Of a stretch of 61,253 nucleotides of DNA, positions 4,557 to 26,981 are shown in pieces. The translations under genes were made by a program, and so were the position numbers. How positions within the stretch are numbered: the first letter of the stretch is position 1; each line of letters opens with the position of its first letter. This stretch comes from Oscillospiraceae bacterium (GTDB lineage: Bacteria > Bacillota > Clostridia > Oscillospirales > Oscillospiraceae), in NCBI GenBank assembly GCA_016282135.1, contig JAEEKA010000064.1, positions 1 to 61,253 on the forward strand, given 5' to 3'. The notes under the pieces were generated by a model. That model had not been told where the DNA came from. It searched no databases and worked only from the letters and a program-made list of their open reading frames with translations.

Positions 4557-4611
4557 TACAGTGTGGGTTTATACGCAGACAACGAATTTGTATTTATAAG
4601 TACTGCATTGC

Positions 4612-4676: not shown

Positions 4677-4903
4677 TGGGCAAATCGGAGCCGATGCGGT
4701 GGCAGCCGACGCAGCGCTGCCCCCCAAAAAAGGCCGTCGTTTCGTCCGCACGGAGACACATGGAGGTGGTCAGAAGAAGGGCGGAAGCACTTACTCCGGA
4801 CATTAGACCTGATCGAGGCAATTACCTCGTTCGGGTGAGGCACGATTCCTGCCGGTTCCGGCAGGAAAGACAGTAACCTGTTGTTGGAAGGAGGTTTTTG
4901 GGA

Positions 4904-9964: not shown

Positions 9965-9989
9965 TCTATGATTATTTGGAGGTAACAGA

Positions 9990-10115: not shown

Positions 10116-10126
10116 CCCAAAAGCCT

Positions 10127-10167
10127 GTGCGGCAGGCAGTATGCACTGCCTGCCGCACTTCCGTTTT
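10127..10167 (+). terminator. Terminator-like hairpin between precursor and maturase
   Basis: TGCGGCAGGCAGT and ACTGCCTGCCGCA pair perfectly around a 4-base loop (about 10130-10159), followed by TCCGTTTTTT. It would let the abundant substrate transcript end here, with partial read-through into the enzyme genes, as in many RiPP operons. Confidence 0.8.
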
Positions 10168-10184
10168 TTCCCTGGAGGTACATA

Positions 10185-11537: not shown

Positions 11538-11796
11538 GGACACTTTTATTCTGAGTCAGGTTGACGACAGCCTGATTGCGGTTCCTGTTGATGCGGCTGC
11601 CGAGTCCTATCACGGCATTGTGCGCCTCAATGAGACCGGCGGCTTTATCTGGAAGGCCCTGGCGGATGGACTGGAGCCGAAGCAGATCGAGGCAAAGCTG
11701 ATGTCAGAGTATTCGGGAGTGGATGTGGAAACGGCGGGGAAAGCGGTTGCGGCCGTTGTGAACCAACTCCGCTCCGAAGGTATTTTGGAGGAGTGA
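11527..11796 (+). CDS. PqqD-like RiPP recognition element protein
   Basis: The 89-residue protein has the PqqD fold signature: 'LNETGGFIWKAL' in the middle and a C-terminal helix with 'VVNQLRSEGIL'. PqqD-type proteins bind the leader of a precursor peptide and deliver it to a radical SAM enzyme. The gene overlaps the end of the maturase gene and is followed 6 bases later by the lipoprotein gene, so all are in one operon. ATG 11527 has GGGAGGGG just upstream. Confidence 0.88.
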   Translation: MKIKDTFILSQVDDSLIAVPVDAAAESYHGIVRLNETGGFIWKALADGLEPKQIEAKLMSEYSGVDVETAGKAVAAVVNQLRSEGILEE

Positions 11797-11802
11797 GCAA
11801 AC

Positions 11803-12297
11803 GTGAATCGGATTTTGTTCATTTGTGCTGCGGTGATTCTTCTGCTCTCCCTTGTGAGCTGTAAAGATCCCCCCAAAGAGCAGCACGCCGAGTCCGGGTC
11901 CGCTGCTGCTCGTGGGCTGGCCACGGAGTATGCGGCGCCTTCCGCAACGGATGCATTGGCGCTTGAGACCCTGGCACCCTGGGAGACCGAACCCACGGGG
12001 CAGACCATCGACATGGAGGAGCTCCGGAAGCTCGCGGAGGAGGCAGGAGCGATTGTCAGCGACGAGGGGATCGAGCTGCCCCCAGACGATCTGACGGGAC
12101 ACAATGCTGCTTCAGACAATCCCCAGGAGCAGACTCCGTCGGCTTCGCCGGAGAGCACCGCACCGGCTCCGCCGGAAACGCCTGCTTCTGAACCGGCGGA
12201 GCCTGTTCCGACTTCTCTGGCGGCTTCCGGGTCGGAGGCAAGCGAGGCAACGGAGCCCGGCGGAATCGGCCAGCTTCCCCTTGACCCGATTGGCTGA
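11803..12297 (+). CDS. Small Pro/Glu/Ala-rich lipoprotein
   Basis: The 164-residue protein has a lipoprotein signal peptide with lipobox 'LVSC' (Cys20), so it should be anchored to the outer face of the membrane. The rest is low-complexity, rich in Pro, Glu, Ala and Ser, and probably disordered or a spacer. The start is GTG at 11803 with GGAGGAG nine bases ahead, overlapping the end of the PqqD-like gene. I do not recognise a family. Its place in the radical SAM operon suggests a role in handling or displaying the modified product at the envelope, but nothing in the sequence proves it. Confidence 0.7.
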   Translation: MNRILFICAAVILLLSLVSCKDPPKEQHAESGSAAARGLATEYAAPSATDALALETLAPWETEPTGQTIDMEELRKLAEEAGAIVSDEGIELPPDDLTGHNAASDNPQEQTPSASPESTAPAPPETPASEPAEPVPTSLAASGSEASEATEPGGIGQLPLDPIG

Positions 12298-12319
12298 TAT
12301 ATAGAGGGGAGAATGCATT

Positions 12320-13030
12320 ATGATAAAAAAGGCCCCGTTTTTTTTCATCATTGCCGCAGCGATGGCAGTGCTGTTTGTTCCGATTGCAGCGGCACATACC
12401 CCGGAACAGGAGCAGACAGCCGATGCGCTGCATGAGCTGGGGCTGTTTCTGGGAACCGGCGATCAGCCGGACGGGACGCCCTCCTATGATTTGGACGCAG
12501 AGCTGACCAGAGCCCAAAGCGTGACGCTGCTGATCCGAATGCTGGGCAAGGAGGACGAGGTCAAAAGCGGTGACTATCCCCATCCGTTCCAGGATACGGC
12601 CGACTGGTATTCCAATTATGTCGGATACGCCTATGCCAACGGGCTGACAAACGGCACTGGTGCGACTACCTTCCGCGGCAGCGGACCGGCTACCGCACAG
12701 ATGTTTGCTACCTTCTGTCTGCGTGCGCTGGGATATGAGGATATGAACGGCGCGACGGATTTTTTGTGGTTTGAGGCAAGCGTCAAGGCGGATGCACTGG
12801 GCATCCGAGTGAACACAGACGCTGCCGTCTACACCCGCGGCGACGCAGTGATTACGTTCTGGGATACGCTGAAAACAAAGCGCAAGGGCTCCGACAAGAC
12901 CCTTGCGGAAAACCTGATTTCGCAGGGTGTTTTTTCCTATGATACTTTTGCAAGAATTTGGCGTGGCCTCTACGGCACAGAGCCTCCGTTCCCCGGCCCC
13001 GGGGAACTGCCTCCGGATCCGCTGAACTAA
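12320..13030 (+). CDS. Exported SLH-like protein
   Basis: The 236-residue protein has a signal peptide (cleavage near 'AAAH', residue 25). It then has segments resembling S-layer homology repeats: 'ELTRAQSVTLLIRMLG', 'HPFQDTADWYSNYVGYAYANGLTNG', 'PATAQMFATFCLRALGY' (each quoted as seen in order). SLH domains bind pyruvylated cell wall polymers. It ends in a short Pro-rich tail. ATG 12320 follows AGAGGGGAG. It is the last gene of the radical SAM operon, 22 bases after the lipoprotein, and is followed by a strong terminator. Confidence 0.8.
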   Translation: MIKKAPFFFIIAAAMAVLFVPIAAAHTPEQEQTADALHELGLFLGTGDQPDGTPSYDLDAELTRAQSVTLLIRMLGKEDEVKSGDYPHPFQDTADWYSNYVGYAYANGLTNGTGATTFRGSGPATAQMFATFCLRALGYEDMNGATDFLWFEASVKADALGIRVNTDAAVYTRGDAVITFWDTLKTKRKGSDKTLAENLISQGVFSYDTFARIWRGLYGTEPPFPGPGELPPDPLN

Positions 13031-13034
13031 ATGG

Positions 13035-13088
13035 ACGAGCTGTGAAGTACGGGGTGTGTTTGTTTCTGTATTTCACAGCTCGTTGTTT
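13035..13088 (+). terminator. Terminator of the radical SAM operon
   Basis: ACGAGCTGTGAA (13035-13046) and TTCACAGCTCGT (13072-13083) form a perfect 12-bp stem, followed by TGTTTTG. Confidence 0.85.
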
Positions 13089-13225
13089 TGCGGATGGGGC
13101 TGTCTCCGTGAGAAAGATCCGGCCGTTGTGAAAAAGTTTGATCGAGCCGACAACCGCCCGCCTGCATCAAAACCGTTTTGAGCGAATCGCAAGGCTATTT
13201 CGGGTTCACTCCCCAAAACAGGGGG

Positions 13226-13254
13226 TAGAAAAAGGCGGGATAATGGTGTATAAT
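13226..13254 (+). promoter_or_regulatory. Probable promoter of the membrane GGDEF gene
   Basis: TAGAAA (13226-13231), 17 bases, perfect TATAAT (13249-13254). The -35 matches only four of six consensus bases. Confidence 0.55.
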
Positions 13255-13350
13255 TATTTAAAATTGCGGATCACCCTTGCGCCTGCCGGCTGAATCCGGG
13301 CAGCGAAGCAAACAATAACCCGACCGGATGCAAGAACGTGGAGGACAGCT

Positions 13351-14748
13351 ATGAAAAAATCACTGCGAACAAAGACGATTATTTTGATTGTGTTGATTGT
13401 TCTTGCGGTTGGAGTAACCGGAATCCTTGTCAGTAATGGATTTGTTCAGAATATCGTCAATGATTTTTACAGCAACAGAGCGGATGAGATTGCCCATACT
13501 GTGGCTGTCGTCCTGGATGCCGAACAGGTCAAGTCCCTGGTGGGAAAGATGAGTGAAATCTACGACTCCGTGGACGAAAAGGTGAGCAGCGAGGATTGGG
13601 GATCGGAAGCGTTTGAGGCATACATTGCCAAGTTCAGCGAGCTGGAGCAGACGGAGGAATATCGGGACCTGCTGCGGCAGCTCCGCGCTGTTCAGGACAA
13701 CAACGACGTGGATTGTCTGTATATTTCCGTGCTGGACGTGGCGGATGAGAGCTTTATCTACCTGGTGGACGCTGCGGAAGAGGACGCCTGCCCCATCGGC
13801 TGCTTCGACCCGGTGTACGAGGAGAACAAGGAGCTCTTCACGAACCCGGAACGGGGCTACCCGCCTTATATTACCAACACGGAGCCCTATGGCTGGCTGG
13901 TCACAGCCGGCGCGCCGATTTACAGCGAGAGTCATAAGGTGATCGGCTACGCGATGGTGGATATCTCCATGGATATGATCCGCTCGCAGCAGACCGGGTT
14001 TATGCGCAGACTGTCGATTACCCTTGCCGCCATTACAATCGTAATCAGTCTTCTGGCCATCTTGGCGGTCAACCGCTCCATTATTCGCCCGATCAATATG
14101 TTGAGTCACGCCGCGTCAAACTACCGGGCCGGGCGGGAGAGCGCAAGCGAATTTGACTCCATGTCCATTCGGACGCAGGACGAGATCGAGTCGCTGTATC
14201 TGTCGGTGCGGCAGATGCTCCACGATATTACCACCTACATCGACAATCTGGTGGCCACCTCCCGGGAGCTGTCTCAGACAAGGGACAAGGCGGACGAAAT
14301 GAGCGAGTTGGCCCACCGGGACGCCCTCACCGGAGCGGGAAGCAAGCTGGCCTATGAGCAGAAGAAGGAGGAGCTTGCGCAGGGAGACGGCAGGTATGGC
14401 ATCGTGATGGCGGACCTGAACGATCTGAAGACGATCAACGACACCGAAGGTCATGCCAAGGGCGACGCGGCCATTCGGATGGTTTGCGGCATCCTTTCCG
14501 ACACCTATCAGGATTCTCCGGTTTACCGAGTTGGCGGCGATGAGTTTGTCGTGATTATCGCGGGAGAAAGCTGTGACCGGGCGGAGGAGCTGGCAGGGCG
14601 CTTCACCCGAAATATCGCCCAATCCGGCGGTGGGATCAGCGCGGCCATCGGATATGCCCTGCATGCGGAAGGTGAGTCGGCGGAAGACGTCTTCCGCCGG
14701 GCTGACAGCACCATGTATGAGAACAAGAGACGAATGAAAGGACAATAA
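13351..14748 (+). CDS. Membrane sensor diguanylate cyclase (extracellular sensor-HAMP-GGDEF)
   Basis: The 465-residue protein has a membrane segment at about 9-31 and a second at about 220-240. These flank an extracellular sensory region that ends in a Cache/PAS-like 'GWLVTAGAPIYSESHKVIGY' stretch. A HAMP region follows ('NRSIIRPINML'), a coiled linker, and a GGDEF domain from about 325 with active site 'RVGGDEF'. It should make cyclic di-GMP in response to an outside signal. It is a single gene; ATG 13351 has GGAGG 9 bases ahead, and a strong hairpin terminator follows. Confidence 0.9.
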   Translation: MKKSLRTKTIILIVLIVLAVGVTGILVSNGFVQNIVNDFYSNRADEIAHTVAVVLDAEQVKSLVGKMSEIYDSVDEKVSSEDWGSEAFEAYIAKFSELEQTEEYRDLLRQLRAVQDNNDVDCLYISVLDVADESFIYLVDAAEEDACPIGCFDPVYEENKELFTNPERGYPPYITNTEPYGWLVTAGAPIYSESHKVIGYAMVDISMDMIRSQQTGFMRRLSITLAAITIVISLLAILAVNRSIIRPINMLSHAASNYRAGRESASEFDSMSIRTQDEIESLYLSVRQMLHDITTYIDNLVATSRELSQTRDKADEMSELAHRDALTGAGSKLAYEQKKEELAQGDGRYGIVMADLNDLKTINDTEGHAKGDAAIRMVCGILSDTYQDSPVYRVGGDEFVVIIAGESCDRAEELAGRFTRNIAQSGGGISAAIGYALHAEGESAEDVFRRADSTMYENKRRMKGQ

Positions 14749-14759
14749 GCATTTTATAA

Positions 14760-14805
14760 GCGGCGCGTCCCAACCCGGAAAACCCGGTTGGGACGCGCCG
14801 CTTTT
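14760..14805. terminator. Terminator between convergent genes
   Basis: GCGGCGCGTCCCAACC and GGTTGGGACGCGCCGC form a 16-bp stem followed by TTTT. It serves the GGDEF gene and may also stop the HAD gene coming from the other side. Confidence 0.9.
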
Positions 14806-14861
14806 CATCGCGGGGCAGGAGCGTCCGTGTAAGCCGCCGCGGGGCGTTCGGGGATCCAGCG

Positions 14862-15491
14862 TCAGTGAAGCTGAGCGAGAACCCCAGGAATCTCGGCAAG
14901 ACAGGACACCGTGCAGTCCGGCACCTCTGCCGCGCAGGACGGCCGCATATACACCGCAAGGCCTTTTCGCATGCGGATAGAGGTCATTCCCAGCGCCTTG
15001 ACGGGGCGAACGTCGTTATCCAGCCGGTCCCCGACCATGACGGCGTTTTCCGGCCTGCAGTCCGCCATTGCCAGCGCCCGCAGGAATATTTCCCGGTCCG
15101 GCTTTGCCACGCCCATCTCCGCGGAGACTGCAATCACGGAAAAGAATCGGCCGAGGCCCCAGGCGTCAAGCCGTTCTCTGGCGCCGGGCTCCTGGTTCGC
15201 GATGACGCCGAGTTGATAGCCCGCGTCACGGAGCGTTTGCAGGGTTTGGGCGCAGTCCGCGAAGGGAACTTCGTCCTCGCTGTGCCAGGGCGTCTTGGTC
15301 AGCCCAAAGTATTCAATCGCCCTCTGATCGCCGTTGAAGCCCGCTTTCGCAAATTGTACGCGTTTTTCATAATACTGTTCAAGGGTAACGGCGGTGCCCC
15401 GGATCATATCTCTGGCGCGATGGCGATAAGCCGCTTCCTCGTCCACCAGCGTGGAGCCGACGTCAAAGAACACCCAATGAAGCGATTTCAT
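14862..15491 (-). CDS. HAD superfamily hydrolase
   Basis: The 209-residue protein has the HAD motifs in order: motif I 'FFDVGSTLVD' (Asp near residue 9), motif II Asn within 'VIANQEPG', motif III Lys in 'GVAKPDREIF', and motif IV 'VMVGDRLDND'. The helical cap lies between motifs I and II. In motif I the second Asp of DxD is replaced (DVGST), as in some members that are not classical phosphatases, so the activity is uncertain. It overlaps the HD gene upstream by 4 bases (ATGA), so the two are co-translated. Confidence 0.85.
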   Translation of the reverse strand: MKSLHWVFFDVGSTLVDEEAAYRHRARDMIRGTAVTLEQYYEKRVQFAKAGFNGDQRAIEYFGLTKTPWHSEDEVPFADCAQTLQTLRDAGYQLGVIANQEPGARERLDAWGLGRFFSVIAVSAEMGVAKPDREIFLRALAMADCRPENAVMVGDRLDNDVRPVKALGMTSIRMRKGLAVYMRPSCAAEVPDCTVSCLAEIPGVLAQLH

Positions 15492-16054
15492 TCGCCGGAA
15501 CCCAGCAGGCCGATATCCGCCGCGTGGGCCTTCATGCCTTCAATGCAGATTTCCGCCACCTCGCTGACGGACATGCCCAGCATCTCGCAGCCCCGCTGGA
15601 TCAGCTCCCGGTCGCACTTGGCGGCAAACTTTTTGTCCTTGAACTTCTTCATGAAGCTCTTGGTTTCCAGGTCGGTGATTCCAAGGGGCCGCATTCTGGC
15701 GCTGGCCTGGATGATGCCGGTCAGCTCGTCTACCGTGAACAGGCTCTTTTCCAGATCGGTTTCCGGCTTTACGTCGGTGCAGTGACCGTAGCCGTGGCTC
15801 AGGATCGCACGCACGTCCGCCTCCGGGACACCGGCCTCCAGCAGGGGCTTTTCGGTGAATTGCAGGTGGGCGTCCGGGTGCTTTTCATAGTCGTAATCGT
15901 GCAGATAGCCCACAGCCATCCAGTGCTCCCGGTCCTGGCCGAAGTGCTCCGCCATCGCCCCCATGGCGTACATGACGTTTTTGGCGTGGAGGATCAGGTG
16001 CTCCTCCGTTACCTGAGAATCGTGGAGCGCTCTTGCTTGCTGCAGGGTCAACAT
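15488..16054 (-). CDS. HD domain metal-dependent hydrolase
   Basis: The 188-residue protein has the HD signature 'VGYLHDYDYEKHP' (His52-Asp53) and a further 'LSHGYGH'. HD proteins hydrolyse phosphate esters, often nucleotides; small stand-alone forms like this are usually uncharacterised. The start ATG at 16054 has AGAGGAAG ahead. It lies 30 bases after the LanT gene on the same strand and may be co-transcribed with the lanthipeptide operon, although its function looks unrelated. Confidence 0.85.
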   Translation of the reverse strand: MLTLQQARALHDSQVTEEHLILHAKNVMYAMGAMAEHFGQDREHWMAVGYLHDYDYEKHPDAHLQFTEKPLLEAGVPEADVRAILSHGYGHCTDVKPETDLEKSLFTVDELTGIIQASARMRPLGITDLETKSFMKKFKDKKFAAKCDRELIQRGCEMLGMSVSEVAEICIEGMKAHAADIGLLGSGE

Positions 16055-16083
16055 TTGAAGACTTCCTCTCTGAATGGATTATT

Positions 16084-18192
16084 CTACTCATTTGCGCCGC
16101 ATTGATACAGAGCAAAGTATTCGCCGCCCTTTTGCATCAACGCATCGTGGGTGCCCTCCTCCACCACGCGGCCGTCCTTCATGACGTAGATGTGATCCGC
16201 GTCGGCAACGGTGGAGAGCCGGTGGGCAATGACCACCAGGGTAAGGCCCAGCTTGTTCAGCTCGTCAAAAATCTGATGCTCTGTGATGGAGTCCAGAGCG
16301 CTGGTGGCCTCGTCCAGCAGGAGGATCTTCGGCTTGGACATCAATGCCCGGGCCAAAATGATCCGCTGTTTTTGTCCGCCGGAGAAAACAGAGCCCTTTT
16401 CCGCCACCATTGTCGCGGCTTTCATGGGCAGCCCCATGATGTCGTCGTAGATTCTGGTGATTTTGCAGACCTCGTCCACCTGGTCCTGGGTATAATCCTC
16501 GGCCAGCATGACGAGATTATCCAGAATGGAGCGGCCCAACAGCGTTCCGTCCTGCCCCACGTAACCAAAGATATGCCGAAGCGCTTTGTTATCCATGGAT
16601 TCGGAATCCGTCCCGTCAAACAGGATTTTCCCCTCCGCGGGCGCGTACATTTTGATCAACAGCTTTGCGATGGAGGATTTTCCGCTGCCGGAGCCGCCGA
16701 TGATTGCGATTTTCTTTCCCTTTTCAATGGTCATGGAGACGTCCTTCAGGACCAGCGGAGCGTGCTTGTCGTAACGGAAGGAAACGTGATCCAGCTGAAT
16801 TTTGGAAATGTCTTCCGGCTTTTTGTCGCCGCTTTTTTCTTCGGGGTGAAAGACAATATCCTTCACCCGATCCGTCAGGTTGCCCATGGTGCGGAAGGAA
16901 TTGACGGAGGAAAAGAGATTCATCGCAAAGGAGGAAACGATTGTTGACAGGGAATACAGGGAAATCGCCGTACCCATTGTGATCCGGTCGGCGCTCACCA
17001 TGTAGAAGGCGGCCAGAAGAATCACCAGCGGAAGTACCAGGGTAAGAACTGCGGTCAGAGAGTTGTAAAAGGCCTCGCTTCGGCTTTTTTGCAAGTTCTT
17101 TTTCACAGAATCCGCAAAGGATTTTTCCCACTCGGAGTAAAATGTGTCCTCCCGCCCGTAGGCCTTTAATTCGCAGATGGAGCTGAGAAATTCAAACTGC
17201 TTTCCCTTCAGCCGGGATCTGCTGCTGATTTCCGACTGATTCAGGCGGACCACCCGATTGTTGGAAAGGCGCAGGACGATGAAGGAGAGCAGCAGCAGCA
17301 GCGCCATCACCCAAAAGAGCCGGAGGGAGCTGACAGCAAAAAAGATGGACAGGATTACCACCGCGCCTCCGGAGATCAGGGAGTTGACCATGAGAACGCT
17401 GTAGCTGTCGTTGATGGTATCGATGCAGTCCAGATTGTAAGAGATCACGCCCAGCGGCCGCATCAGGAAATACCGGAAGTCCGATTTCCCCAGTTTTTCC
17501 ATGGCCAGGGAGAAGAAGGATTTATAGATTCTGGATTTGACCACTACGCTGAACAGGGTGCTGACGGTATAGGCGATCGCGTATCCCAAAAGCGCCGCCC
17601 CGCCGATCAGGATCAAGGGATTCATCTCGGTAGTTGGAGCGTCTATGATTTTTTGCACCAGCATGGGGACGACGGTGGAAATGACGTAGGCCAGCAGGCT
17701 CAGCAGCAGCACGGAGGCGATCAGCAGCTTGTTTTTTGCCAGCAAAAACGTATAATTCCACCACAGGGAGCGGCCGGGCGCCCGCTTTTCAAAGCGCTCC
17801 GAGGGCTTTGGGCAGAAGATCAGGCCGGAAAACAGCTGGTCAAATTCTTCCAAGGAAACGATGACCCGTCCGGCTCCGGGGTCAACGATATAGACCCGGC
17901 TGCCCTTGGTTTTTTCGATTACAACGTAATGGGAGCCCTCCCAAAAAGCGATGGCCGGCAGGGGAATGGCGGGAAGGTGCTCCCGTTTACAGCGGTAGAT
18001 CTTGCAGTCAAAGCCCAGCCATTCCAGCAGCGTGCTCAACTGTTTGCCGGAAATGCCGTCTCGGCCGGGCTGCTGGTAGTCCCGGAGCTCTTCCAGCGAG
18101 ACGCTGCGTCCGTAGTACTGGGAGATCATGGCGGCACAGCACAGACCGCATTCAGTTTTCAGAAACTGTGAGACAACTTTGATTTTTTTCAT
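16084..18192 (-). CDS. Peptidase-containing lanthipeptide ABC exporter (LanT)
   Basis: The 702-residue protein has an N-terminal C39 peptidase domain with catalytic 'TECGLCCAAMI' (Cys15), 'GSHYVVIEK' (His near 98) and 'YIVDPGAG' (Asp near 113). A six-helix membrane region follows (about 150-430), then an ATPase domain with Walker A 'GGSGSGKSSI', signature 'FSGGQKQRI' and Walker B 'ILLLDEATSAL'. It should cut the leader from modified peptides and export the core across the membrane. It starts 13 bases after the LanM gene ends, so both are in one operon. The four precursor genes upstream are its likely cargo. Confidence 0.92.
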   Translation of the reverse strand: MKKIKVVSQFLKTECGLCCAAMISQYYGRSVSLEELRDYQQPGRDGISGKQLSTLLEWLGFDCKIYRCKREHLPAIPLPAIAFWEGSHYVVIEKTKGSRVYIVDPGAGRVIVSLEEFDQLFSGLIFCPKPSERFEKRAPGRSLWWNYTFLLAKNKLLIASVLLLSLLAYVISTVVPMLVQKIIDAPTTEMNPLILIGGAALLGYAIAYTVSTLFSVVVKSRIYKSFFSLAMEKLGKSDFRYFLMRPLGVISYNLDCIDTINDSYSVLMVNSLISGGAVVILSIFFAVSSLRLFWVMALLLLLSFIVLRLSNNRVVRLNQSEISSRSRLKGKQFEFLSSICELKAYGREDTFYSEWEKSFADSVKKNLQKSRSEAFYNSLTAVLTLVLPLVILLAAFYMVSADRITMGTAISLYSLSTIVSSFAMNLFSSVNSFRTMGNLTDRVKDIVFHPEEKSGDKKPEDISKIQLDHVSFRYDKHAPLVLKDVSMTIEKGKKIAIIGGSGSGKSSIAKLLIKMYAPAEGKILFDGTDSESMDNKALRHIFGYVGQDGTLLGRSILDNLVMLAEDYTQDQVDEVCKITRIYDDIMGLPMKAATMVAEKGSVFSGGQKQRIILARALMSKPKILLLDEATSALDSITEHQIFDELNKLGLTLVVIAHRLSTVADADHIYVMKDGRVVEEGTHDALMQKGGEYFALYQCGANE

Positions 18193-18204
18193 GGATTCCT
18201 ATCC

Positions 18205-21087
18205 TCACGGTATTTCCAGCGCTAAAACGGAGGGAATGTCCGGCCGCAGCTGCTGCAGCAGGCAGTAGCCCAGACCGCATAATCCGTCCATGAAGGAGAT
18301 TTGCAGGGTGTTTGTGGCGTCCCGCATCAGGACGCCGTCTTCCCGCAGCAGCCGCAGCAGCCGGGACAGGCCCTGGGCGGCTGCCTGGGCCGCGCTCTCG
18401 TCGCCGCTGCGCTTCGCGTACCATTGCAGCGCCGACAGATTCCCTGCCAGACCGTGGCAGAGCAGGGGGCGCTCGTCGCCGGAGCGTACGGCATCTATGG
18501 TGCAGCGGAGGGCCAGGGCGATGTCACGCTCTGCCAAAGCCCGGTCCGCGTCCTTGATGAAGGGTCGAGCCAGCTCCCGGGCGATCAGGATTCCCGGCCC
18601 GCCGTAGCACCAGGCGTTCATGCCGGTTCGATATCCGTCGGTGGTGTCCCAGCTGTTTCGCGCGGGGTTGTATTTTGCGCTTTCCCACCCCATAAGGTCC
18701 AGCCCCGCAGCGTAGTAGTTCTCATTGCCGGTGACGCCGCTGAGCATCAGCAGGGCGGTGCTGATGCCGGCGTATCCGTGGGCAAAGCCGGTTTGCTCGA
18801 TCAGCTGACCGGCGGAACAGGCTTCGTACAGCGTTTCTCCGCAGACCTCGGCCAGGGTACGCAGTCCGGCAAAGCCCGGCAGCTTGCCCCAGGCGTTCAG
18901 ACAGCAGATCATGAGCCCTGCGTGGCCGGAAATGACGTCACATTCCGTGGGAAACGCTTTCACCATTGGAATCATTTGCCGGCAAAGCTGCTCCGCGGCT
19001 TCCAGGTGCCGGTCGTCCTTTGTGGCGCCGTAAAGATAGAGATGGAGATACAGAGCGGAGCCCAGGCCGGTAAAAACGCCGATGCTGCGGTCTGCGCCGC
19101 TCAGAAACAGAGGCGTTTGCAGGGGAGAATCCGGACTGGTGACAGCGTGGAGCATGGCCTCATAAGCCTGCCGTCCCCGGCCCAGAACGGCGGCGTACTG
19201 GAAATAAAACAGGGTAGAACCGATCCCGCTGTACAGAATCGGCGGCTCCGGCTGCAACATGACTTTCCCGTTTCCCGGTGCGCCGGCCAGGTACAGGGGG
19301 GAGGGATCGTCCGTCGGCGTGATGCGGAAGTATCGCTCCCGGAGATCGACGATCCAATCGGCCAGGGCGGTGATCTGTGCGGCTTGCCCCGAAGCACGAA
19401 AAACAGCGGGGTCAATGGGATAGTACCGTTTTTCCCGGTAATCCGGATGGGTCAGCGCTCTGCGCAGGCAGAACAGCTGCCGGAAGCAGTCAGCCTCGCT
19501 CAGCCTGCCGACAAACGCAGAAAACAGCTCTTCCACCGAATACCGATAGAAGCCCTCCGCCACACAGCCCTCCGATGAGAACAGGTCCCGGGAGGAGAAG
19601 GTGGTATAAAAATAGGGGACGTCGTCCTGCAGTAATTGTCGGATCTCCGATTGGACGAGGAGCCGGTGCTCCGGGGAATAAAAGCCGCTCTTGCCCTTGA
19701 GCTTTCCAAAGACTGCCATCCGGGTCTCGCTGCTTCCCAGATAGGAGGGGTGATAGCTTGCGATCAGGTATTTTCCGTACAGCTCCGTATCCCGGAAAAG
19801 CTGGCGGAATACGCCCTTTGCAAAGAAACCGGAGCGGGCCAGCCCCAACAGCGCCTCCCGGCGGGCCAGGGCTGCCTCATAGGCGTCCCGGAAGCCCTTG
19901 GAAAGCGTATCGACGTAATCCCCGGCGTGAAGGGGACAGTGGGCAAGATAGGGGAGATTGGTATAAATCGTCTCTTCCGGGGGAAGGACTTCCTCGGAAA
20001 AGCTCATCTCATCCGTGCCCGGCCGGACGATGGTTTGCACCGGGGGCGGCGCCTTTCCGGTGTCCAGACCCCACAGGATTCCGTTGCCGATGTAGCGCTC
20101 AAAGAGCTTTCCGGGCAAAAGGTCCGCCGGAAGCAGGCCGGAGGCAAAGACGGAACGCAGAATAAAGCGCTTCCAGGGGTCCACGGAATCCATGTGATAG
20201 CCCTTCAGACAGTGCTGGTTGTGGAACATGGTTTCCGTATCCACAAGCACCGGGGAATCTCCCCAGGCCACGATGTTCTCCCGGTGCAGATCGCAGCAGG
20301 CGGTGAGATAGGCCAGGAAGATCAGGGCGCCCAGACGGTACATATAGCGCTCCGCCTCGGTCTCATCCCGGCAGGCTCGGTGGGAAATGTACTCCTGCCA
20401 GCCGTAGCCGTCCCGGGAGAGGACCCGCAAATGCCGCAGTGGGAAAGCCAGCTTCCCGGAGGCGTTCAGCCATTGGGCCAATCCGGAAAAAATAAGATCG
20501 TTTTCCAGGGAATGGGGCTTGTAGACCAGCTTTTGATTTCCGTTTACCGTCAAAATGGCGACGGTTCTGCCGCCGTTGTGGGTATCCCCCTGGCTCACCT
20601 CCAGGTCGTCGACGGAAGCGATGGGAGCGCCGAGAAATTCGTTCAGCAGGTCAAAATCGTCCAGCAGCCGGTCAAGAAGCTCCGCAACAGCGGCCAGAGA
20701 GCAGCGGACTCGGTTGGAGACAAGCCGGCCCAACTCGGTGGAGGGCGCCAGCAGTTGTTCTCTGCGCGCAAGCAGACAGTTTTGCAGGAAAAACTGATAC
20801 CGGGCCTCCGGGGTCTCCCCCCGGAGATCCTTCTTCGCGTAATACAGCTCTCCCAGAAAGCTGCGGGAGCACAGACGAACAAGGGCGCTCAAAAGCGCCT
20901 TTCCCAAGGATAAAAGAATCGCCCCGGTATTACACGCAACCCCTGGCTTCCGCTGCCGGAAGGTCGCCAAACGCTCCTCCACAGCGGACAAATACGTTAA
21001 AAGAGTTGTCTGGAATACCGGACCGAAAAAACCGTCGGCCTTTTCAATTAACTGCGCGCAGACAGTCTGCGCTTCGCGATGCAACAT
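18205..21087 (-). CDS. lanM: Class II lanthipeptide synthetase LanM
   Basis: The 960-residue bifunctional enzyme has an N-terminal dehydratase with 'GDTHNGGR' (about 167-174), 'LVYKPHSL' (about 187-194), 'CDLHRENIVAWG' (about 265-276) and 'LVDTETMF'. The C-terminal LanC-like cyclase has 'GFAHGYAG', then zinc ligands in 'WCYGGPG' (Cys near 827) and 'LLCHGLAG' (Cys-His near 877). It should phosphorylate and dehydrate Ser/Thr in the cores and then add Cys to form (methyl)lanthionine rings. I use the ATG at 21087, which has AGGGTGG five bases ahead; a GTG at 21096 would add three residues. The length and the intact motifs suggest an active enzyme. Confidence 0.95.
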   Translation of the reverse strand: MLHREAQTVCAQLIEKADGFFGPVFQTTLLTYLSAVEERLATFRQRKPGVACNTGAILLSLGKALLSALVRLCSRSFLGELYYAKKDLRGETPEARYQFFLQNCLLARREQLLAPSTELGRLVSNRVRCSLAAVAELLDRLLDDFDLLNEFLGAPIASVDDLEVSQGDTHNGGRTVAILTVNGNQKLVYKPHSLENDLIFSGLAQWLNASGKLAFPLRHLRVLSRDGYGWQEYISHRACRDETEAERYMYRLGALIFLAYLTACCDLHRENIVAWGDSPVLVDTETMFHNQHCLKGYHMDSVDPWKRFILRSVFASGLLPADLLPGKLFERYIGNGILWGLDTGKAPPPVQTIVRPGTDEMSFSEEVLPPEETIYTNLPYLAHCPLHAGDYVDTLSKGFRDAYEAALARREALLGLARSGFFAKGVFRQLFRDTELYGKYLIASYHPSYLGSSETRMAVFGKLKGKSGFYSPEHRLLVQSEIRQLLQDDVPYFYTTFSSRDLFSSEGCVAEGFYRYSVEELFSAFVGRLSEADCFRQLFCLRRALTHPDYREKRYYPIDPAVFRASGQAAQITALADWIVDLRERYFRITPTDDPSPLYLAGAPGNGKVMLQPEPPILYSGIGSTLFYFQYAAVLGRGRQAYEAMLHAVTSPDSPLQTPLFLSGADRSIGVFTGLGSALYLHLYLYGATKDDRHLEAAEQLCRQMIPMVKAFPTECDVISGHAGLMICCLNAWGKLPGFAGLRTLAEVCGETLYEACSAGQLIEQTGFAHGYAGISTALLMLSGVTGNENYYAAGLDLMGWESAKYNPARNSWDTTDGYRTGMNAWCYGGPGILIARELARPFIKDADRALAERDIALALRCTIDAVRSGDERPLLCHGLAGNLSALQWYAKRSGDESAAQAAAQGLSRLLRLLREDGVLMRDATNTLQISFMDGLCGLGYCLLQQLRPDIPSVLALEIP

Positions 21088-21117
21088 TCGAACCACCCTA
21101 AATATTTGTCAGCGCAC

Positions 21118-21151
21118 TGCAGGCTGCGCCTGTGTCCGGACGCAGCCCGCA
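21118..21151 (-). promoter_or_regulatory. Hairpin between the precursor genes and lanM
   Basis: TGCAGGCTGCG and CGCAGCCCGCA pair with one mismatch. There is no T run. It could shield the abundant precursor message or dampen translation of lanM; this is inference. Confidence 0.45.
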
Positions 21152-21272
21152 GAGGAATCGACTCTGTAGCTGGGGAAAGGTGCTTTTGATCATTCATTCC
21201 CGGAATGAAGGCAGAGGTACAATTTCATCGACGCCGTCGGCAGGACCGACGAGCTTCAGATAATAGCGGTTA

Positions 21273-21416
21273 TCAGATGCAGATTCCGCCCATTCCCAAA
21301 AGGGGCTTAAACCCGGGGGTGTTGCTGAGGCAGGCAGCGGAAACCTCCGTCACCTCTTCCGCCTGAACTTCAAGCTCTTCCAGATTGATTGCGCCGGTCA
21401 TCTTTTCGTAAGTCAT
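21273..21416 (-). CDS. Lanthipeptide precursor D, 47 aa
   Basis: The leader (residues 1-28) starts MTYEKMTGAINLEELEV and ends EVSAA. The predicted core of 19 residues is CLSNTPGFKPLLGMGGICI, with two Cys, one Ser and one Thr, so up to two rings are possible. The start has AGGAGGAACGCTC-ATG. It is the precursor gene closest to lanM (185 bases away). The core ends in a Gly-rich, hydrophobic stretch with a near-terminal Cys. Confidence 0.88.
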   Translation of the reverse strand: MTYEKMTGAINLEELEVQAEEVTEVSAACLSNTPGFKPLLGMGGICI

Positions 21417-21503
21417 GAGCGTTCCTCCTGAAAATCTTGTTGTTTTCTCTTTCGCGTCAGCGAGGCTGACAAATTCCGTTGGTTTCTTACGGTTGGCGGA
21501 GAA

Positions 21504-21647
21504 TCAGAGGCACAGCAGCGGGTACATTTCACGGAAAAACTGTGAGAAGCTGGTGGCCAAAATCGCAGCGGAAACTTCCGTAACCTCTTCCGCCTGGACC
21601 TCAAGCGCTTCCAGATCGATTGCGCCGGTCATCTTTTCGTAAGTCAT
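21504..21647 (-). CDS. Lanthipeptide precursor C, 47 aa
   Basis: The leader is identical in protein sequence to that of precursor B over residues 1-28. The predicted core is ILATSFSQFFREMYPLLCL: one Thr, two Ser and a single Cys near the C-terminus, so one ring plus possible free dehydro residues. The site GAGGTAATTCC-ATG is strong. Another frame across this region gives a longer but meaningless protein. Confidence 0.87.
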   Translation of the reverse strand: MTYEKMTGAIDLEALEVQAEEVTEVSAAILATSFSQFFREMYPLLCL

Positions 21648-21711
21648 GGAATTACCTCCTCAATAGTTGGTTGTGGTCTCCCTGCTGTCAGCGGACCTGA
21701 CAGACCTGGTT

Positions 21712-21861
21712 TTATTCGTTGCAGAACCCGTAAAAAGCGGCCAGGCGCCAGTTGCCGGAAATCAACGTGCAAACACCGGCGGCGGAAACCTCCGTCACCT
21801 CTTCGGCCTGAACCTCAAGCGCTTCCAGATCGATCGCACCGGTCATTTTTTCGTAAGTCAT
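21712..21861 (-). CDS. Lanthipeptide precursor B, 49 aa
   Basis: The leader (MTYEKMTGAIDLEALEV ... EVSAA) is followed by a core beginning GVCTLISGNW and ending FYGFCNE, with two Cys, one Thr and one Ser: a two-ring arrangement is possible. GGAGGTATTCCC precedes the ATG. It lies 29 bases after precursor A stops. Confidence 0.88.
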   Translation of the reverse strand: MTYEKMTGAIDLEALEVQAEEVTEVSAAGVCTLISGNWRLAAFYGFCNE

Positions 21862-21890
21862 GGGAATACCTCCTTGCACTCTTTGATTTC

Positions 21891-22022
21891 TCAGTTGAAG
21901 ACGAAAATTCTGCAGAAAGCCAGGCTCCAAGTTTCGGCAGCGGCAGAAACTTCGGCAACTTCTTCGGCCTGAACTTCCAGCTCGTCCAAATTGATCGCGC
22001 CGGTTATCTTTTCATAAGTCAT
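21891..22022 (-). CDS. Lanthipeptide precursor A, 43 aa
   Basis: First gene of the operon. The leader is the most divergent of the four (MTYEKITGAINLDELEV ... VAEVSAA). The core AETWSLAFCRIFVFN is the shortest and most hydrophobic, with one Thr, one Ser and one Cys, so only one ring can form. GGAGGTAATCCC precedes the ATG, and a consensus-like promoter lies 90 bases upstream. Confidence 0.87.
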   Translation of the reverse strand: MTYEKITGAINLDELEVQAEEVAEVSAAAETWSLAFCRIFVFN

Positions 22023-22110
22023 GGGATTACCTCCAATATGATGATTCGCTTTGCTCCAGCTACAGAGCCGATGGATTGGCAGGCGGCGTATCCCGTCTGC
22101 GGGCATAAAA

Positions 22111-22139
22111 AGCATACAAAAAAATAGGGGAAAAGTCAA
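22111..22139 (-). promoter_or_regulatory. Promoter of the lanthipeptide operon
   Basis: On the minus strand TTGACT (22134-22139), a 17-base AT-rich spacer and TATGCT (22111-22116). It lies between the GH3 stop and precursor A, so the operon has its own start even though GH3 points the same way. Confidence 0.8.
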
Positions 22140-22197
22140 ATATATACACATAAACGAATAAAAAATTGTTGGCCTGCACAAATTCAAATTCCTCTTT

Positions 22198-24624
22198 TTA
22201 GGAATCTTGACGTTTGCCTGCGAGCTCCAGTGCCATGCGCAAAATCCGGGTTGCGTTGATCTGAAGCTGTCTTCGGGTCACAGTTCCCGCTTGCAGGCCC
22301 TTCAGCATAGCGCTCAGATCTCCCTGGCAGCCGGGCATGATCAGATCATTTCCGGCGGCCGCGATCTTCGGCGCCTCCGGGCCGGGGTATTTGTTGCCCC
22401 TGCCGCTCAGCGCGGCCACGATCCAGTCAGTCATCACGATTCCCCGGAAGCCGAATTCGGCCCGGAGGACGTCCTGGATCAGATCCCGCCGTTGGGAGGT
22501 ATGGACGCCGTTGATGAGGTTGTAGGAGCTCATCAGGGCGTGGGGTTGGCCCTCCCGGACCGCGATTTCGAAGCCCCGGAGGTAGAGCTCCCGCAGAGTC
22601 CGTTCGCTGGCCTGGCTGTTGGAGTTATAGCGGTTGGTCTCCTGGTTGTTGGCGGCAAAGTGCTTGACGGTGGCGCCGCGCCCCGGGTGCCGCTGTACGC
22701 CCTGGGTCAGGGCTGCGGCAAATTTGCCGGAGATCAGCGGATCCTCGGAGAAATATTCAAAGTTGCGGCCGCAGCGGACGTCCCGGTGGAGATTCAGGGC
22801 CGGGGCCAGCCAGAGGTGGACCCCGAAGCGCTCCATCTCGTCGCCCACAATGTCGCCGCATTGCCGGGCAAAATCCAGGTTCCAGCTCTGGGCCAGAGCG
22901 GAGGCGATGGGAATTGCCGTGCAGTATTGCTCGTGGATCTCGCCCGTGGTCTGCTTCGCTCTGTCCCGAAGCCGGATCGCCAGGGCAGCCGGAGCGGGCA
23001 TCAGCTCCATCACGCTTTCCAGCATGCTGCCCTCCAGAGGGTGAGCGCCCGTTTCGTCCCGGGTATACCGGCGGCTCAGCCGCAGGCCGGCGGGGCCGTC
23101 GGCCATGACCAGGGCGGGGACGCCCAGGTCGGTGAGGCAGGCGCTGGTTTCCCCCGCGGCCCCAGCCACGGTGTTGGCGGCGTTGCCCGCGACGCTTTGC
23201 AGGCCCTTCAGCTTGAAGGCACCGATGTTCATGAGGCAGAGCGTTTCGTCGGTCAGGCGCGCAGCCATCGGGTCGATCTCCTGGGGCAGCACGTAGTCAA
23301 CGATTTCCGTCGCAAAGTCGGCGGCGGAGACCCGCAGAACGGGAAGTCCCTCGGGGATGGCTTCGGATTTTACATGCGGCGTCCAGTCGGGGAAATCCGG
23401 CTTGCCCAGACAGTTTTTGACCTTTTTCAGAACTGCCTCTCCATCCAGGCGGAGGAGGGCGACGGGTCGGGCGTCCCGGCTGGAACTGCCCAGCCGCAGC
23501 GCATAGTCTCCCGGCTCCAGGATCCAGCAGGCTTGGACCTCGTCGTAGGAGGCCAGATCCCGCAGGTCAAAGCACAGCTGCAGCGTCTGTTCTGCGCCCG
23601 GCTGCAGGGTTTCGGTTTTTGCGAAAGCGGCAAGAGCCTGGAAGGGCTTGTCCAGCCTGCCCCGGGGCTGGGAGACGTAGAGCTGCAGAACCTCCTTGCC
23701 GGGGAAGCTGCCGGTATTGTTTACCGCGGCTTCCACCGTGACGGTTCCGCCTGCCTCCGCGGCCTGAATAAAGCGGTGGGAAAAGTCGGTGTAGCTCAGG
23801 CCGAAGCCAAAGGGGAAAAGAGGCGCTTTGCCCACGCTGTCAAAATAGCGGTAGCCTACGTAGAGCCCTTCTTTGTAGTGGGTGTCGTTCTTCCTGCCGA
23901 AGCAGCCCACGGCGGGGTAGTCGCCCCAGGCGGCCCAGCTTGTGGCCAACTTGCCGGAGGGTGTGGCTTTGCCCAGAAGCAGGTCCGCCAGGATGCTGCC
24001 GGTTTCTGCACCCAGCTGACTGAGCAGCAGGATGTTTCGGACCTCAAGCACCGGCGAGAGATCCACTACCCCGCCCACGTTCAGCACCAGCAGGAAATGC
24101 CGGAACCTCCGGTTGAGGGCGAGGATGTTCCGCCGCTCCGTCTCGGTCAGCAGGATGTCGCCGGGAATGGGCTTCCGATCCGAGCCCTCCCCGGAGATTC
24201 GGGACAGGACGTAGACGGCGGCTTCTCCCGCCCCGTCCAGGGGAAGCTGATATTCCGGCTCCGGCATCACCGCGCCCATGCTGCTTAACACGGCCAGGGT
24301 CCCATGTCTCAGCGCGGTGTGCTTCAGCCGGCGGATAAAGCCCTTTTTCGCCTTCCGCCAGACGCCTTCATACCGGTCCAGCCAGGCCTTGCTGGTAATG
24401 GAAAAGCCCGCGGCCTCCAGGCCCTGCTCCGCCGTCACAAAGCAGCGGGAATTGACTTCGCCGGAGCCGGTGCCGCCCTTGACGGTACGCCGGGCGCCGC
24501 TGCCGTACAGGGCCAGCCTGCAGGGAGCGGCCAGGGGGAAGCTGCCGTCGCGCTTGAGCAGTACGGCGCACTCGGCGCCGAAGCGCCGCACGATGGCGTT
24601 GTGTTCGATTTCATAGGGATTCAT
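22198..24624 (-). CDS. Permuted GH3 family beta-glycosidase
   Basis: The 808-residue enzyme has its domains in permuted order. The alpha/beta sandwich comes first (with 'TPSGKLATSW' and 'LFPFGFGLSYTDF'), then a fibronectin-III-like domain ('SFPGKEVLQLYV'). The GH3 TIM barrel is last, with 'MADGPAGLR', 'KHFAANNQE' and the nucleophile motif 'GIVMTDW' near residue 755. It should release terminal beta-linked glucose, xylose or arabinose from oligosaccharides. There is no signal peptide, so it acts in the cytosol on imported sugars. ATG 24624 has GGAGGTTTTGCC ahead. It neighbours the arabinose genes and probably feeds them. There is no obvious terminator before the lanthipeptide operon. Confidence 0.9.
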   Translation of the reverse strand: MNPYEIEHNAIVRRFGAECAVLLKRDGSFPLAAPCRLALYGSGARRTVKGGTGSGEVNSRCFVTAEQGLEAAGFSITSKAWLDRYEGVWRKAKKGFIRRLKHTALRHGTLAVLSSMGAVMPEPEYQLPLDGAGEAAVYVLSRISGEGSDRKPIPGDILLTETERRNILALNRRFRHFLLVLNVGGVVDLSPVLEVRNILLLSQLGAETGSILADLLLGKATPSGKLATSWAAWGDYPAVGCFGRKNDTHYKEGLYVGYRYFDSVGKAPLFPFGFGLSYTDFSHRFIQAAEAGGTVTVEAAVNNTGSFPGKEVLQLYVSQPRGRLDKPFQALAAFAKTETLQPGAEQTLQLCFDLRDLASYDEVQACWILEPGDYALRLGSSSRDARPVALLRLDGEAVLKKVKNCLGKPDFPDWTPHVKSEAIPEGLPVLRVSAADFATEIVDYVLPQEIDPMAARLTDETLCLMNIGAFKLKGLQSVAGNAANTVAGAAGETSACLTDLGVPALVMADGPAGLRLSRRYTRDETGAHPLEGSMLESVMELMPAPAALAIRLRDRAKQTTGEIHEQYCTAIPIASALAQSWNLDFARQCGDIVGDEMERFGVHLWLAPALNLHRDVRCGRNFEYFSEDPLISGKFAAALTQGVQRHPGRGATVKHFAANNQETNRYNSNSQASERTLRELYLRGFEIAVREGQPHALMSSYNLINGVHTSQRRDLIQDVLRAEFGFRGIVMTDWIVAALSGRGNKYPGPEAPKIAAAGNDLIMPGCQGDLSAMLKGLQAGTVTRRQLQINATRILRMALELAGKRQDS

Positions 24625-25638: not shown

Positions 25639-26721
25639 TCAGCTGCTCTCCTTCTCCACCAGGATCCAGGGAGCCAGCCGGGATTCGCAGGGCTCGCCCC
25701 GGAGCAGGCAAAAGAGAGTTTCGGCGGCGATCCGGCCTACGTTGAACCGCTCGTGGGACAGGGAGGTGATCCGGGGCGTGGACATCTCGCTGTAAGGGCT
25801 GTTGTCAAAGCTGACCACGGCGATGTCGCCGGGAACAGAGAGACCCTTTCGGGTGAGATAGGCAATGACCCGGGCGGCAATCTCGTCGTTGTAACAGACA
25901 ATGGCGCTGCAGGAGGACAGCATCCCGGCCATTCGCTCCTCGGTGTAGTCGTCCCGCAGAAAATGGTCCTTTTGGGCTGTGCCGTACCAGAGCACGTTGT
26001 TGTCCTCCGGGGAGAGATCAAACTTTTGCAGGCCCTCCAGATACCCGGCAAAACGCTGCCGCCCCTGGAGGTCGTCATATTTGAAGATTCCGCCGATCCC
26101 CCGGTGGCCCTTTTGGTACAGGTACTCCACCAGCATTCGGCCGCCGGCTACGTTGTCGTCCAGAACGGAGAGGGTGTCGGGCAGCTGCTCATAGTTACCG
26201 TGCATGAACACCAGGGGAATGCCCTTTTCCATCAGCCGGTGGCAGAGGGAGATATTGGGATTGGGGAAGCCGGTTTTGGTGCCCTCGATCAGGATTCCGT
26301 CCAGTTCCTCAGTTTCGATCAGGGTCTGCAGAATCCGCCGCTCGTTGGAAAACTGGTTCTGGGTGGCGAACAGCAGGGGGGCGCTGTTGTTCTCCGAGCA
26401 GACCGCCTCGATCTCCCGCAGAATACTGGGGAAAATGTAGTCGCTGATGTAGGTGGTTACAACGGCAATGGAGCGGCGGGGGAGGGGGGCAGGGTCCCGT
26501 TTTTCCCGGATGAAGGAGCCGCTGCCCTGCCTGCGCTCAATCAGACGCTCACTTTCCAAAATAGAGAGGGCCTGCCGCACGGTTTGCCGGCTGACCTGAA
26601 ACTGACCGCAAAGCGCCTGCTCTGTGGGAAGCATCCTTTGGTATTTTCCGGAGAGGATCCCGGTTCGCAGAGATTCCGCGAGAATCTGATACTTTGGCGT
26701 CATAATTTGGCTCACATCCAT
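25639..26721 (-). CDS. araR: AraR-type repressor (GntR N-terminus, LacI-type sugar-binding C-terminus)
   Basis: The 360-residue regulator has a GntR winged helix at about 8-75 ('MLPTEQALCGQFQVSRQTVRQ' region, 'IERRQGSGSFI'). A LacI/GalR-type ligand domain follows ('IAVVTTYISDYIFPSI', 'LVFMHGNYE', 'AVVSFDNSPYSEM'). This fusion is the AraR family, which represses arabinose genes until L-arabinose binds. I start at the ATG at 26721, after AAGGA, rather than further upstream where the frame runs through the promoter. It is divergent from the sugar transporter operon and has a consensus promoter. Confidence 0.9.
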   Translation of the reverse strand: MDVSQIMTPKYQILAESLRTGILSGKYQRMLPTEQALCGQFQVSRQTVRQALSILESERLIERRQGSGSFIREKRDPAPLPRRSIAVVTTYISDYIFPSILREIEAVCSENNSAPLLFATQNQFSNERRILQTLIETEELDGILIEGTKTGFPNPNISLCHRLMEKGIPLVFMHGNYEQLPDTLSVLDDNVAGGRMLVEYLYQKGHRGIGGIFKYDDLQGRQRFAGYLEGLQKFDLSPEDNNVLWYGTAQKDHFLRDDYTEERMAGMLSSCSAIVCYNDEIAARVIAYLTRKGLSVPGDIAVVSFDNSPYSEMSTPRITSLSHERFNVGRIAAETLFCLLRGEPCESRLAPWILVEKESS

Positions 26722-26739
26722 ACAATTTTTCTTTTCCTT

Positions 26740-26768
26740 ATTATAAGCACATCTGGAATTTGTGTCAA
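26740..26768 (-). promoter_or_regulatory. araR promoter
   Basis: Perfect TTGACA (26763-26768) and TATAAT (26740-26745) with a 17-base spacer on the minus strand. The predicted start gives a leader of only about 12 bases before the ATG at 26721. Confidence 0.88.
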
Positions 26769-26799
26769 TATTAGTTTTATATTTTTTATAAATTGTTTT

Positions 26800-26815
26800 A
26801 GTTGTATGTATCAAT
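26800..26815. promoter_or_regulatory. Candidate AraR operator near the araR promoter
   Basis: AGTTGTAT-GTATCAAT matches 12 of 16 positions of ATTTGTACGTACAAAT. It lies about 30 bases upstream of the araR -35 and could mediate autorepression. Confidence 0.4.
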
Positions 26816-26981
26816 TGGGAGGGAAATTGTGCAAAGCAACGAACAAGTTCGGACGGGTAATGGGAAGAAAAACACTGAAAATACAAGAAATACGGTGGGT
26901 TTTTTCACAAAAATGTGATTTGTACGGTGCCGGGCTGTGGTGATGAATAAATTTGTATTGTGCATGGCAACAAAAATCATT

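Follow-up and report, generated by a model that had tools for sequence, protein, structure and literature searches.

The window analysed here, a stretch of 61,253 nucleotides from an Oscillospiraceae genome (contig JAEEKA010000064.1), carries four short precursor genes followed by lanM and a gene for a C39-ABC exporter, all on its minus strand. Our analysis points to a multi-substrate class II lanthipeptide operon in which the precursor segment would be closed by an mRNA helix, a reading to which we give a probability of about 0.72.

Layout of the operon

The features of the operon, in the direction of transcription, are as follows.

22111..22139, minus strand: promoter-like site TTGACT-17-TATGCT upstream of the operon (consensus match, 9/12)
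22079..22100, minus strand: predicted 5' leader hairpin directly upstream of the UP arm (sequence and computed folds)
22056..22072, minus strand: UP arm ATCGGCTCTGTAGCTGG in the 5' leader, complementary to the DN arm (complementarity, folds)
21891..22022, minus strand: precursor P1, 43 aa, core AETWSLAFCRIFVFN (ORF, leader alignment, leader profile)
21712..21861, minus strand: precursor P2, 49 aa, core GVCTLISGNWRLAAFYGFCNE (ORF, leader alignment, leader profile)
21504..21647, minus strand: precursor P3, 47 aa, core ILATSFSQFFREMYPLLCL (ORF, leader alignment, leader profile)
21273..21416, minus strand: precursor P4, 47 aa, core CLSNTPGFKPLLGMGGICI, with a similar core in locus L014 (ORF, leader alignment and profile)
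21157..21173, minus strand: DN arm CCAGCTACAGAGTCGAT between P4 and lanM (complementarity, folds)
18205..21087, minus strand: lanM, class II lanthipeptide synthetase, 960 aa from ATG, with WCYG and LCHG motifs (domains, alignments)
16084..18192, minus strand: lanT, C39 peptidase-ABC exporter, 702 aa (domains, alignment)

A sequence-only reading had described four tandem genes of 43 to 49 codons with ribosome sites of their own, and these are present, GGAGG lying 7 nucleotides 5' of the ATG in all four. The lanM start was taken as ATG, since the alternative GTG start listed at 21096 falls within the probable ribosome-binding site. The placement of the whole operon under one promoter holds insofar as a promoter-like site lies upstream, but this site is a consensus match only, of a kind that is frequent (7 per 8.5 kb versus 2.8 expected). 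No terminator-like site is listed between the last precursor gene and lanM. The HD gene at 15488-16054 was considered as a member of the operon and rejected: in L004, the near copy of the operon, it stays with the HAD and GGDEF genes, and the lan operon lies on their other side.

Synthetase and exporter

LanM scores 567.5 bits against TIGR03897 (cut-off, 304) and consists of a DUF4135 domain (N-terminal dehydratase) and a LANC_like domain (C-terminal cyclase), while the exporter contains Peptidase_C39, ABC_membrane, and ABC_tran domains. These domain matches confirm that the precursor genes are succeeded, on the same strand, by genes for a full-length LanM and an exporter of the C39-ABC type. 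Two solved relatives were found at E ≤ 0.001, namely, LicM2 (6st5; aligned query residues 63-960) and CylM (5dzt; 56-538), both of which serve two-peptide lantibiotics. The dehydratase stretches YKP, DLHxEN, and DxET align with LicM2 (DFHxEN there) and CylM, and the cyclase stretches WCYG and LCHG align with LicM2 (WCHG there); we take the aligned residues to be the catalytic residues of the kinase-like lyase and the zinc ligands of the cyclase. The zinc motif is CHG in all five aligned LanM copies, including that of the window, and the CCG of the ProcM type is absent. Stretches with Cys, His, and Asp/Asn, presumably catalytic, are present in all four aligned C39 domains. The window's own genome contains no second LanM.

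Precursors with a common leader and diverse cores

The near-identity of the leaders was borne out by alignment: 23 of the first 28 residues are invariant among P1 to P4, and the leaders of P2 and P3 are identical. A profile built on the leader matched four places at E ≤ 0.001 in the 2.5-Mb genome, which are P1 to P4 themselves. None of the four precursors matched an NCBIfam model; in Pfam they gave two chance-level matches, far under the cut-off, and no match to Nif11 at E ≤ 1 in any of the four.

Thirteen precursors from four operons (the window, L014, L009, and L015) were aligned, the four of L004 being omitted as near copies; their leaders align and their cores diverge. All 13 listed cores, including the four of the window, contain at least two Ser/Thr and at least one Cys. 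The window cores are 15 to 21 residues long with one or two Cys each. Given a Cys frequency of 0.0188, as calculated from five window proteins, all four would contain Cys by chance with a probability of 0.007. Core net charge ranges from -1 to +2. By eye, two L009 cores (SPMSAVYVILCRICDGMY and SPVSAVFTILCRACDGQY) keep the ring-type residues and differ in the others, and three of the four L015 cores share an xCTxCCPxW motif. The description of the C-terminal parts as unrelated is correct within the window but not across species, since a recognizable counterpart of the P4 core (CLSNTPGFKPLLGMGGICI) occurs in L014 (FLSNTPGFKPIIGTCICI), an operon whose LanM shares 71% identity with that of the window.

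Between the window and L004, the cores differ by four synonymous changes and one nonsynonymous change (pS, 0.081; pN, 0.006; few sites), and the leaders by no synonymous and two nonsynonymous changes (again few sites). The corresponding values are a pS of 0.075 and a pN of 0.014 for lanM and 0.280 and 0.035 for lanT. With its LanM and C39 families and the shared leader family, the cluster is, as judged from sequence and as had been proposed, well supported as one of the class II lanthipeptide type in which a single synthetase would serve several substrates.

Distribution of the operon

A LanM match at E ≤ 1e-10 was obtained in 5 of the 23 genomes of the genus. One of them, G409, was rejected as a carrier: its match covers 128 residues (32% identity) of a 755-aa ORF, and no leader-profile match accompanies it. 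Because that match is so short, full-length LanM amounts to five copies in four genomes: the window's own (G000), G405 (97% identity), G401 (71% and 44%), and G359 (52%). The leader family (E ≤ 0.01) occurs in exactly these 4 of the 23 genomes, with 17 precursors (four in G000, four in G405, six in G401, and three in G359). All five full-length lanM copies, the window and its 97% near copy included, are adjoined by two to four precursor genes of the common leader family, so that the genus holds no relative with lanM and without such ORFs, an arrangement that would have spoken against the sequence-only reading. The frames are open in all five operons. Precursor numbers vary (four in the window, two in L014, three in L009, and four in L015). 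The four carriers are drafts of 72 to 88% completeness, and the operon is absent from all four genus genomes with at least 90% completeness and at most 5% contamination. The near copy L004, taken as the G405 locus, comes from Oscillospiraceae bacterium RGIG8286 of the water buffalo rumen.

Outside the genus, close LanM relatives are scarce. In a family-level sample that included 9 of the 23 genus genomes, LanM was matched at E ≤ 1e-30 in 2 of 400 genomes, both of the genus; in an order-level sample (E ≤ 1e-60), the only match among 394 genomes was the window's own genome; and in a class-level sample, relatives were present in 7 of 391 genomes, its own included. No small ORF passed a crude precursor filter in three class-level LanM regions (L049 to L051), which therefore serve as weak controls only. 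Viral contigs yielded one LanM relative (25% identity). Plasmids yielded 189 LanM records, all below 60% identity, the best 15 of the 189 lying at 24 to 28%. PADLOC gave no LanM match.

A candidate cut site behind Ala-Ala

All four window leaders end in VSAA, and none of them has the double-Gly type of end (GG, GA, or GS), which is customary in class II clusters but not obligatory. Leader ends are SAA and SAS in L014 and SAA (two) and AAA (one) in L009, and in the paralogous operon L015 they are VSGG (three) and VSGA (one). According to the available part of one review (PMC10885120), canonical C39 leader ends are GG, GA, or GS, and the C39 domain recognizes hydrophobic residues at positions -4, -7, and -12. 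By eye, hydrophobic residues occupy these three positions in all 13 leaders. Because this pattern is kept, we read the Ala-Ala end as a variant site, behind which cleavage would occur. The C39 domain of the window is 72% identical to that of L015, the operon with GG ends; thus, no large protease change accompanies the change of site. An Ala-Ala cut site was not found in the open-licence literature searched, a partial collection. In one mining pipeline, as far as the available part of its description goes (PMC7268733), the leader is delimited by GG, by GA, or by the spacing from Ser/Thr to Cys; leaders with Ala-Ala would broaden the range of ends that mining tools recognize.

Complementary arms enclose the precursor genes

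In four distinct operons, a complementary pair of 12 to 18 bp encloses the precursor array. The window has the UP arm (ATCGGCTCTGTAGCTGG, 22072-22056) in the 5' leader and the DN arm (CCAGCTACAGAGTCGAT, 21173-21157) before lanM. The same or nearly the same pair is found in L004 and L014, and a diverged one (GCGGTTCCGTAGTTG/CAACTACGGAACCG) in L009, where the second precursor is without a properly matching pair. L015 has one pair in each of three units; at a single position, both arms of unit 1 differ from those of the other two units. An 11-mer of the UP arm (GGCTCTGTAGC) is identical in the window and L004, L014, and two L015 units.

Covariation was assessed in an alignment of six distinct units and 12 columns that was compiled by hand from the loci. 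Standard pairs fill 72 of 72 cells, and shifted partners are at most 46% paired; this percentage is biased because the arms were chosen for complementarity before counting, and two-sided changes are the better evidence. They occur in 5 of the 12 pairs: L009 by itself accounts for three, and L014 and L015 unit 1 contribute one each; of the remaining pairs, two show one-sided changes and five are invariant. None of 500 shuffles reached the observed value on four of five measures, and the fifth, further pair types, was reached in 89 of 500. The non-Watson-Crick cells within the 12 columns are G-U (columns 6-43, 8-41, and 4-45, the first two one-sided), and mismatches lie outside these columns. 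The covariation spans operons whose LanM proteins are 43 to 71% identical to that of the window, and the pair is repeated per unit where the precursors are separate.

In computed folds of transcripts from the 5' leader to the spacer, the mean pairing probability of the arms is at least 0.98 in eight of eight cases, two of them from L009. Eight pairs were compared with 400 dinucleotide shuffles each. For six of them no shuffle reached the best complement, whereas four did for L015 unit 1 and one did for L015 unit 3. With the same geometry, none of 1,242 other places in the window reached the arm score of 41.5 (maximum, 37.5).

A motif-blind search compared the 200 nucleotides before lanM with the region 320 to 1,600 nucleotides upstream. 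The arm element ranked best in all five operons (41.5, 41.5, 38.0, and 42.5, with L015 at 32.5), and controls at the starts of three other LanM genes scored 24.5 to 27.0 and a neighboring ORF start 23.0. At 300 random places, the 95th percentile was 32.0; three places scored at least 38, two of them reached 41.5, and the highest score was 59.0. The L015 score is about the 95th percentile of this background, and L015 alone would therefore not stand out. The case for the arms rests on the recurrence of one element across operons.

Two other sources of the arms were considered and rejected. As for a genome-wide repeat, the UP arm is the sole exact match of the 14-mer GGCTCTGTAGCTGG in its own genome; two further sites differ from it by one nucleotide, and the DN arm is one of these. 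As for a known RNA family, one match in the window region and three in the L015 units all lie far under gathering scores; at gathering score, the sole families matched in L009, L014, and L015 are a TPP riboswitch and a group II intron, both outside the precursor region. An enclosing long-range helix in such operons was not found in the open-licence literature searched, a partial collection.

Position and movement of the operon

The operon occupies a different position in its closest relative. This difference, which only a comparison with relatives could reveal, goes beyond the sequence-only reading, as do the Ala-Ala leader ends and the complementary arms. Positions 16095-22225 of the window are 94.7% identical to L004, and the flanking blocks are 84.7%, 87.2%, and 90.0% identical. 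The window operon is flanked by a GH3 gene and the HD gene, whereas that of L004 lies between the GGDEF gene and a gene for a YiiX-like amidase, a place taken in the window by a radical-SAM RiPP-like cluster. The aldolase-HD interval of L004 holds a carbon-nitrogen hydrolase gene and a PF00144 gene. Because L004 is only 16 kb long, the other genes of the window may exist elsewhere in that genome. In 200-nucleotide bins, identity is 0.965 to 0.995 over 22000-19001, 0.94 to 0.965 over 19000-18601, 0.885 to 0.945 over 18600-16601, and 0.85 to 0.87 over 16600-16201. As identity falls toward lanT, exchange of the precursor genes and of the greater part of lanM seems to be of more recent date than that of lanT.

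The neighbors of the other operons are MoxR-type ATPase, DUF4129, and SPFH genes (L014); a transglutaminase-like gene and a group II intron (L009); and PNPase and phage portal genes (L015). Two regulator-like genes were seen by eye in these surroundings, a GntR-like one with sugar genes at 25639-26886 of the window and, in L015, an XRE-like ORF that follows the exporter gene.

Proposed function and alternative explanations

We propose that one LanM recognizes the leader common to the four precursors, dehydrates Ser/Thr, and closes thioether rings onto the one or two Cys of each core. The C39-ABC transporter would then cut behind Val-Ser-Ala-Ala and export four different lanthipeptides of 15 to 21 residues, whose biological activity we infer. 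On the message, the arm in the 5' leader would pair in vivo with the arm before lanM, so that a loop of about 880 nucleotides sets the precursor genes apart as a separate segment. Such a helix would most likely stabilize or demarcate the precursor mRNA and thereby provide substrates in excess over LanM and LanT. A wider form of the proposal, that operons of this genus fence their precursor genes by a conserved long-range mRNA helix that sets the substrate:enzyme ratio, with C39 sites shifted between Gly-Gly and Ala-Ala, is put forward tentatively, at slightly less than even odds.

Several observations count against the preferred reading: AA is not among the C39 ends named in the cited review, the zinc motif is CHG and not CCG, the leaders differ from those of L004 by nonsynonymous changes only, L009 supplies three of the five two-sided changes, the measure of further pair types does not exceed shuffles, the L015 score does not stand out from random places, pairing is imperfect outside the 12 columns, the second L009 precursor has no proper pair, and the 11-mer of the UP arm is kept beyond the needs of pairing. 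The last of these bears on the main rival, in which the lanthipeptide part is right and the arms are a DNA inverted repeat, either regulator sites or the trace of a mobile element or cassette. The different places of the operon in the window and L004 would suit this explanation, as would L015 units 2 and 3, which are tandem copies that begin with the promoter-like box and extend slightly beyond the DN arm. However, the block that the window shares with L004 (16095-22225) does not end at the arms (within 21157-22072), and the L015 UP arm lies inside the repeated unit. By eye, the motif is not palindromic in all loci. The departures from Watson-Crick pairing in the 12 columns, all of them G-U, and the matched difference in both arms of L015 unit 1, which binding by a common regulator would not require, also speak against a DNA role. 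We consider such a role unlikely, and the mRNA helix is favored.

The remaining alternatives concern the product. The sequence-only reading had suggested a multi-component bacteriocin, that is, a lantibiotic of two or more components in which the four peptides work together. Several peptides are indeed encoded in one operon behind one promoter-like site, and multi-core peptides of Ruminococcus flavefaciens FD-1 were reported, in the available part of the source, to be active against R. albus (PMC13289728). Nevertheless, a Pfam scan of part of the flanking ORFs of the five loci found no LanFEG- or LanI-like immunity gene among 17 proteins, the number and kind of cores vary by operon, and the low net charge of the cores points the same way; the suggestion gained no specific support and is improbable in our view. 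Decay or silencing of the operon, with no product formed, is very improbable. All carriers are incomplete drafts, and the distribution is sparse within the genus, which would fit decay, but the open frames in all five operons and a pN below pS in the cores (few sites), lanM, and lanT are at odds with it. If the arms do form an mRNA helix, as we prefer, they would constitute an RNA device setting the substrate-to-enzyme ratio in a RiPP operon, suggest how such an operon makes far more substrate than enzyme without a listed terminator-like site, and offer a simple part for expression design.

Comparison with known systems

Multi-precursor class II systems are already known, also from rumen bacteria (PMC6363468, PMC12328550, and PMC13289728); the comparisons drawn here extend to the available parts of these sources. 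The LahA1-9/LahT system of Lachnospiraceae bacterium C6A11 (PMC6363468) has nine precursors with a conserved leader and diverse cores and a C39-ABC transporter, and, like the window system, it belongs to a gut bacterium of the Clostridium group. By description it is set apart by its leaders, which are of the Nif11 type and end in double Gly, whereas those of the window have 28 residues, end in Ala-Ala, and give no Nif11 match. The rumen strains R. flavefaciens FD-1 and XPD3002 (PMC13289728) are similar by description in having several class II cores per strain, six in XPD3002.

The prochlorosins and ProcM (PMC12328550) resemble the window system in that one LanM acts on several substrates with similar leaders. 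The available part of that source associates the CCG zinc motif with the ProcM group and with substrate tolerance, and ProcM-like enzymes carry CCG, in contrast to the CHG of the window LanM. Compared with the prochlorosins, the window substrates are few, lie within the same operon, and have short leaders. Unlike LicM2 and CylM, the window LanM is accompanied by four leader-sharing substrates and by no second LanM in its genome. A survey of lanthipeptide clusters in rumen metagenome-assembled genomes (PMC8241843, available part) concerns the same habitat, includes Oscillospiraceae, the family of the near relative RGIG8286, and finds class II to predominate; it counts clusters and names precursor diversity as future work. 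To these systems the window adds a small multi-substrate LanM with four ready substrates and sister operons, from an order in which close LanM relatives are rare.

A possible insertion site for peptide clusters

When window positions 3872-13340 were compared with positions 6004-12580 of L004, a 16-kb locus of a close relative that carries a near copy of the lanthipeptide (lan) operon with a 97% identical LanM, the lan operon in L004 was found to occupy the place of the window's radical-SAM cluster. In L004, it is flanked by a GGDEF gene and a YiiX-like amidase gene, and it is possible that the interval between these genes is an insertion hot spot for peptide clusters. The radical-SAM cluster (3916-11796, + strand) is a second RiPP-like cluster of the window besides the lan operon.

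Genes of the radical-SAM cluster
3916-4386, +, signal peptidase-like gene (match below cut-off)
4898-9964, +, repeat protein of 1688 aa
9990-10115, +, Cys-containing ORF of 41 aa
10185-11537, +, radical SAM protein
11524-11796, +, PqqD protein

The radical SAM protein matches TIGR04463 and further peptide-maturase models, all far below cut-off.

RNA features and surroundings of the lan operons

Small hairpins lie 3' of two window precursor genes on the - strand, CTGTCAGGTCCGCTGACAG after P2 (21685-21703) and GTCAGCCTCGCTGAC after P3 (21456-21470); they might tune each precursor's share. In L015, the paralogous GG-type lan operon of genome G401, all three precursor units (7160-8630) have a strong predicted 5' hairpin (GCAGCA...TGCTGC), preceded in units 2 and 3 by a clear promoter-like box, and a hairpin-like repeat follows the precursor gene (partly by eye). 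An Rfam search of 7160-8630 gave no match close to a gathering score. Downstream of this operon (14150-17484) are XRE-like and IrrE-like ORFs, named by eye, and a P22-type portal protein; therefore, a prophage may adjoin it. Beside the operon of G359, a genome of the same genus, a group II intron domain (L009 17903-18056) starts about 100 nt 3' of the exporter gene.
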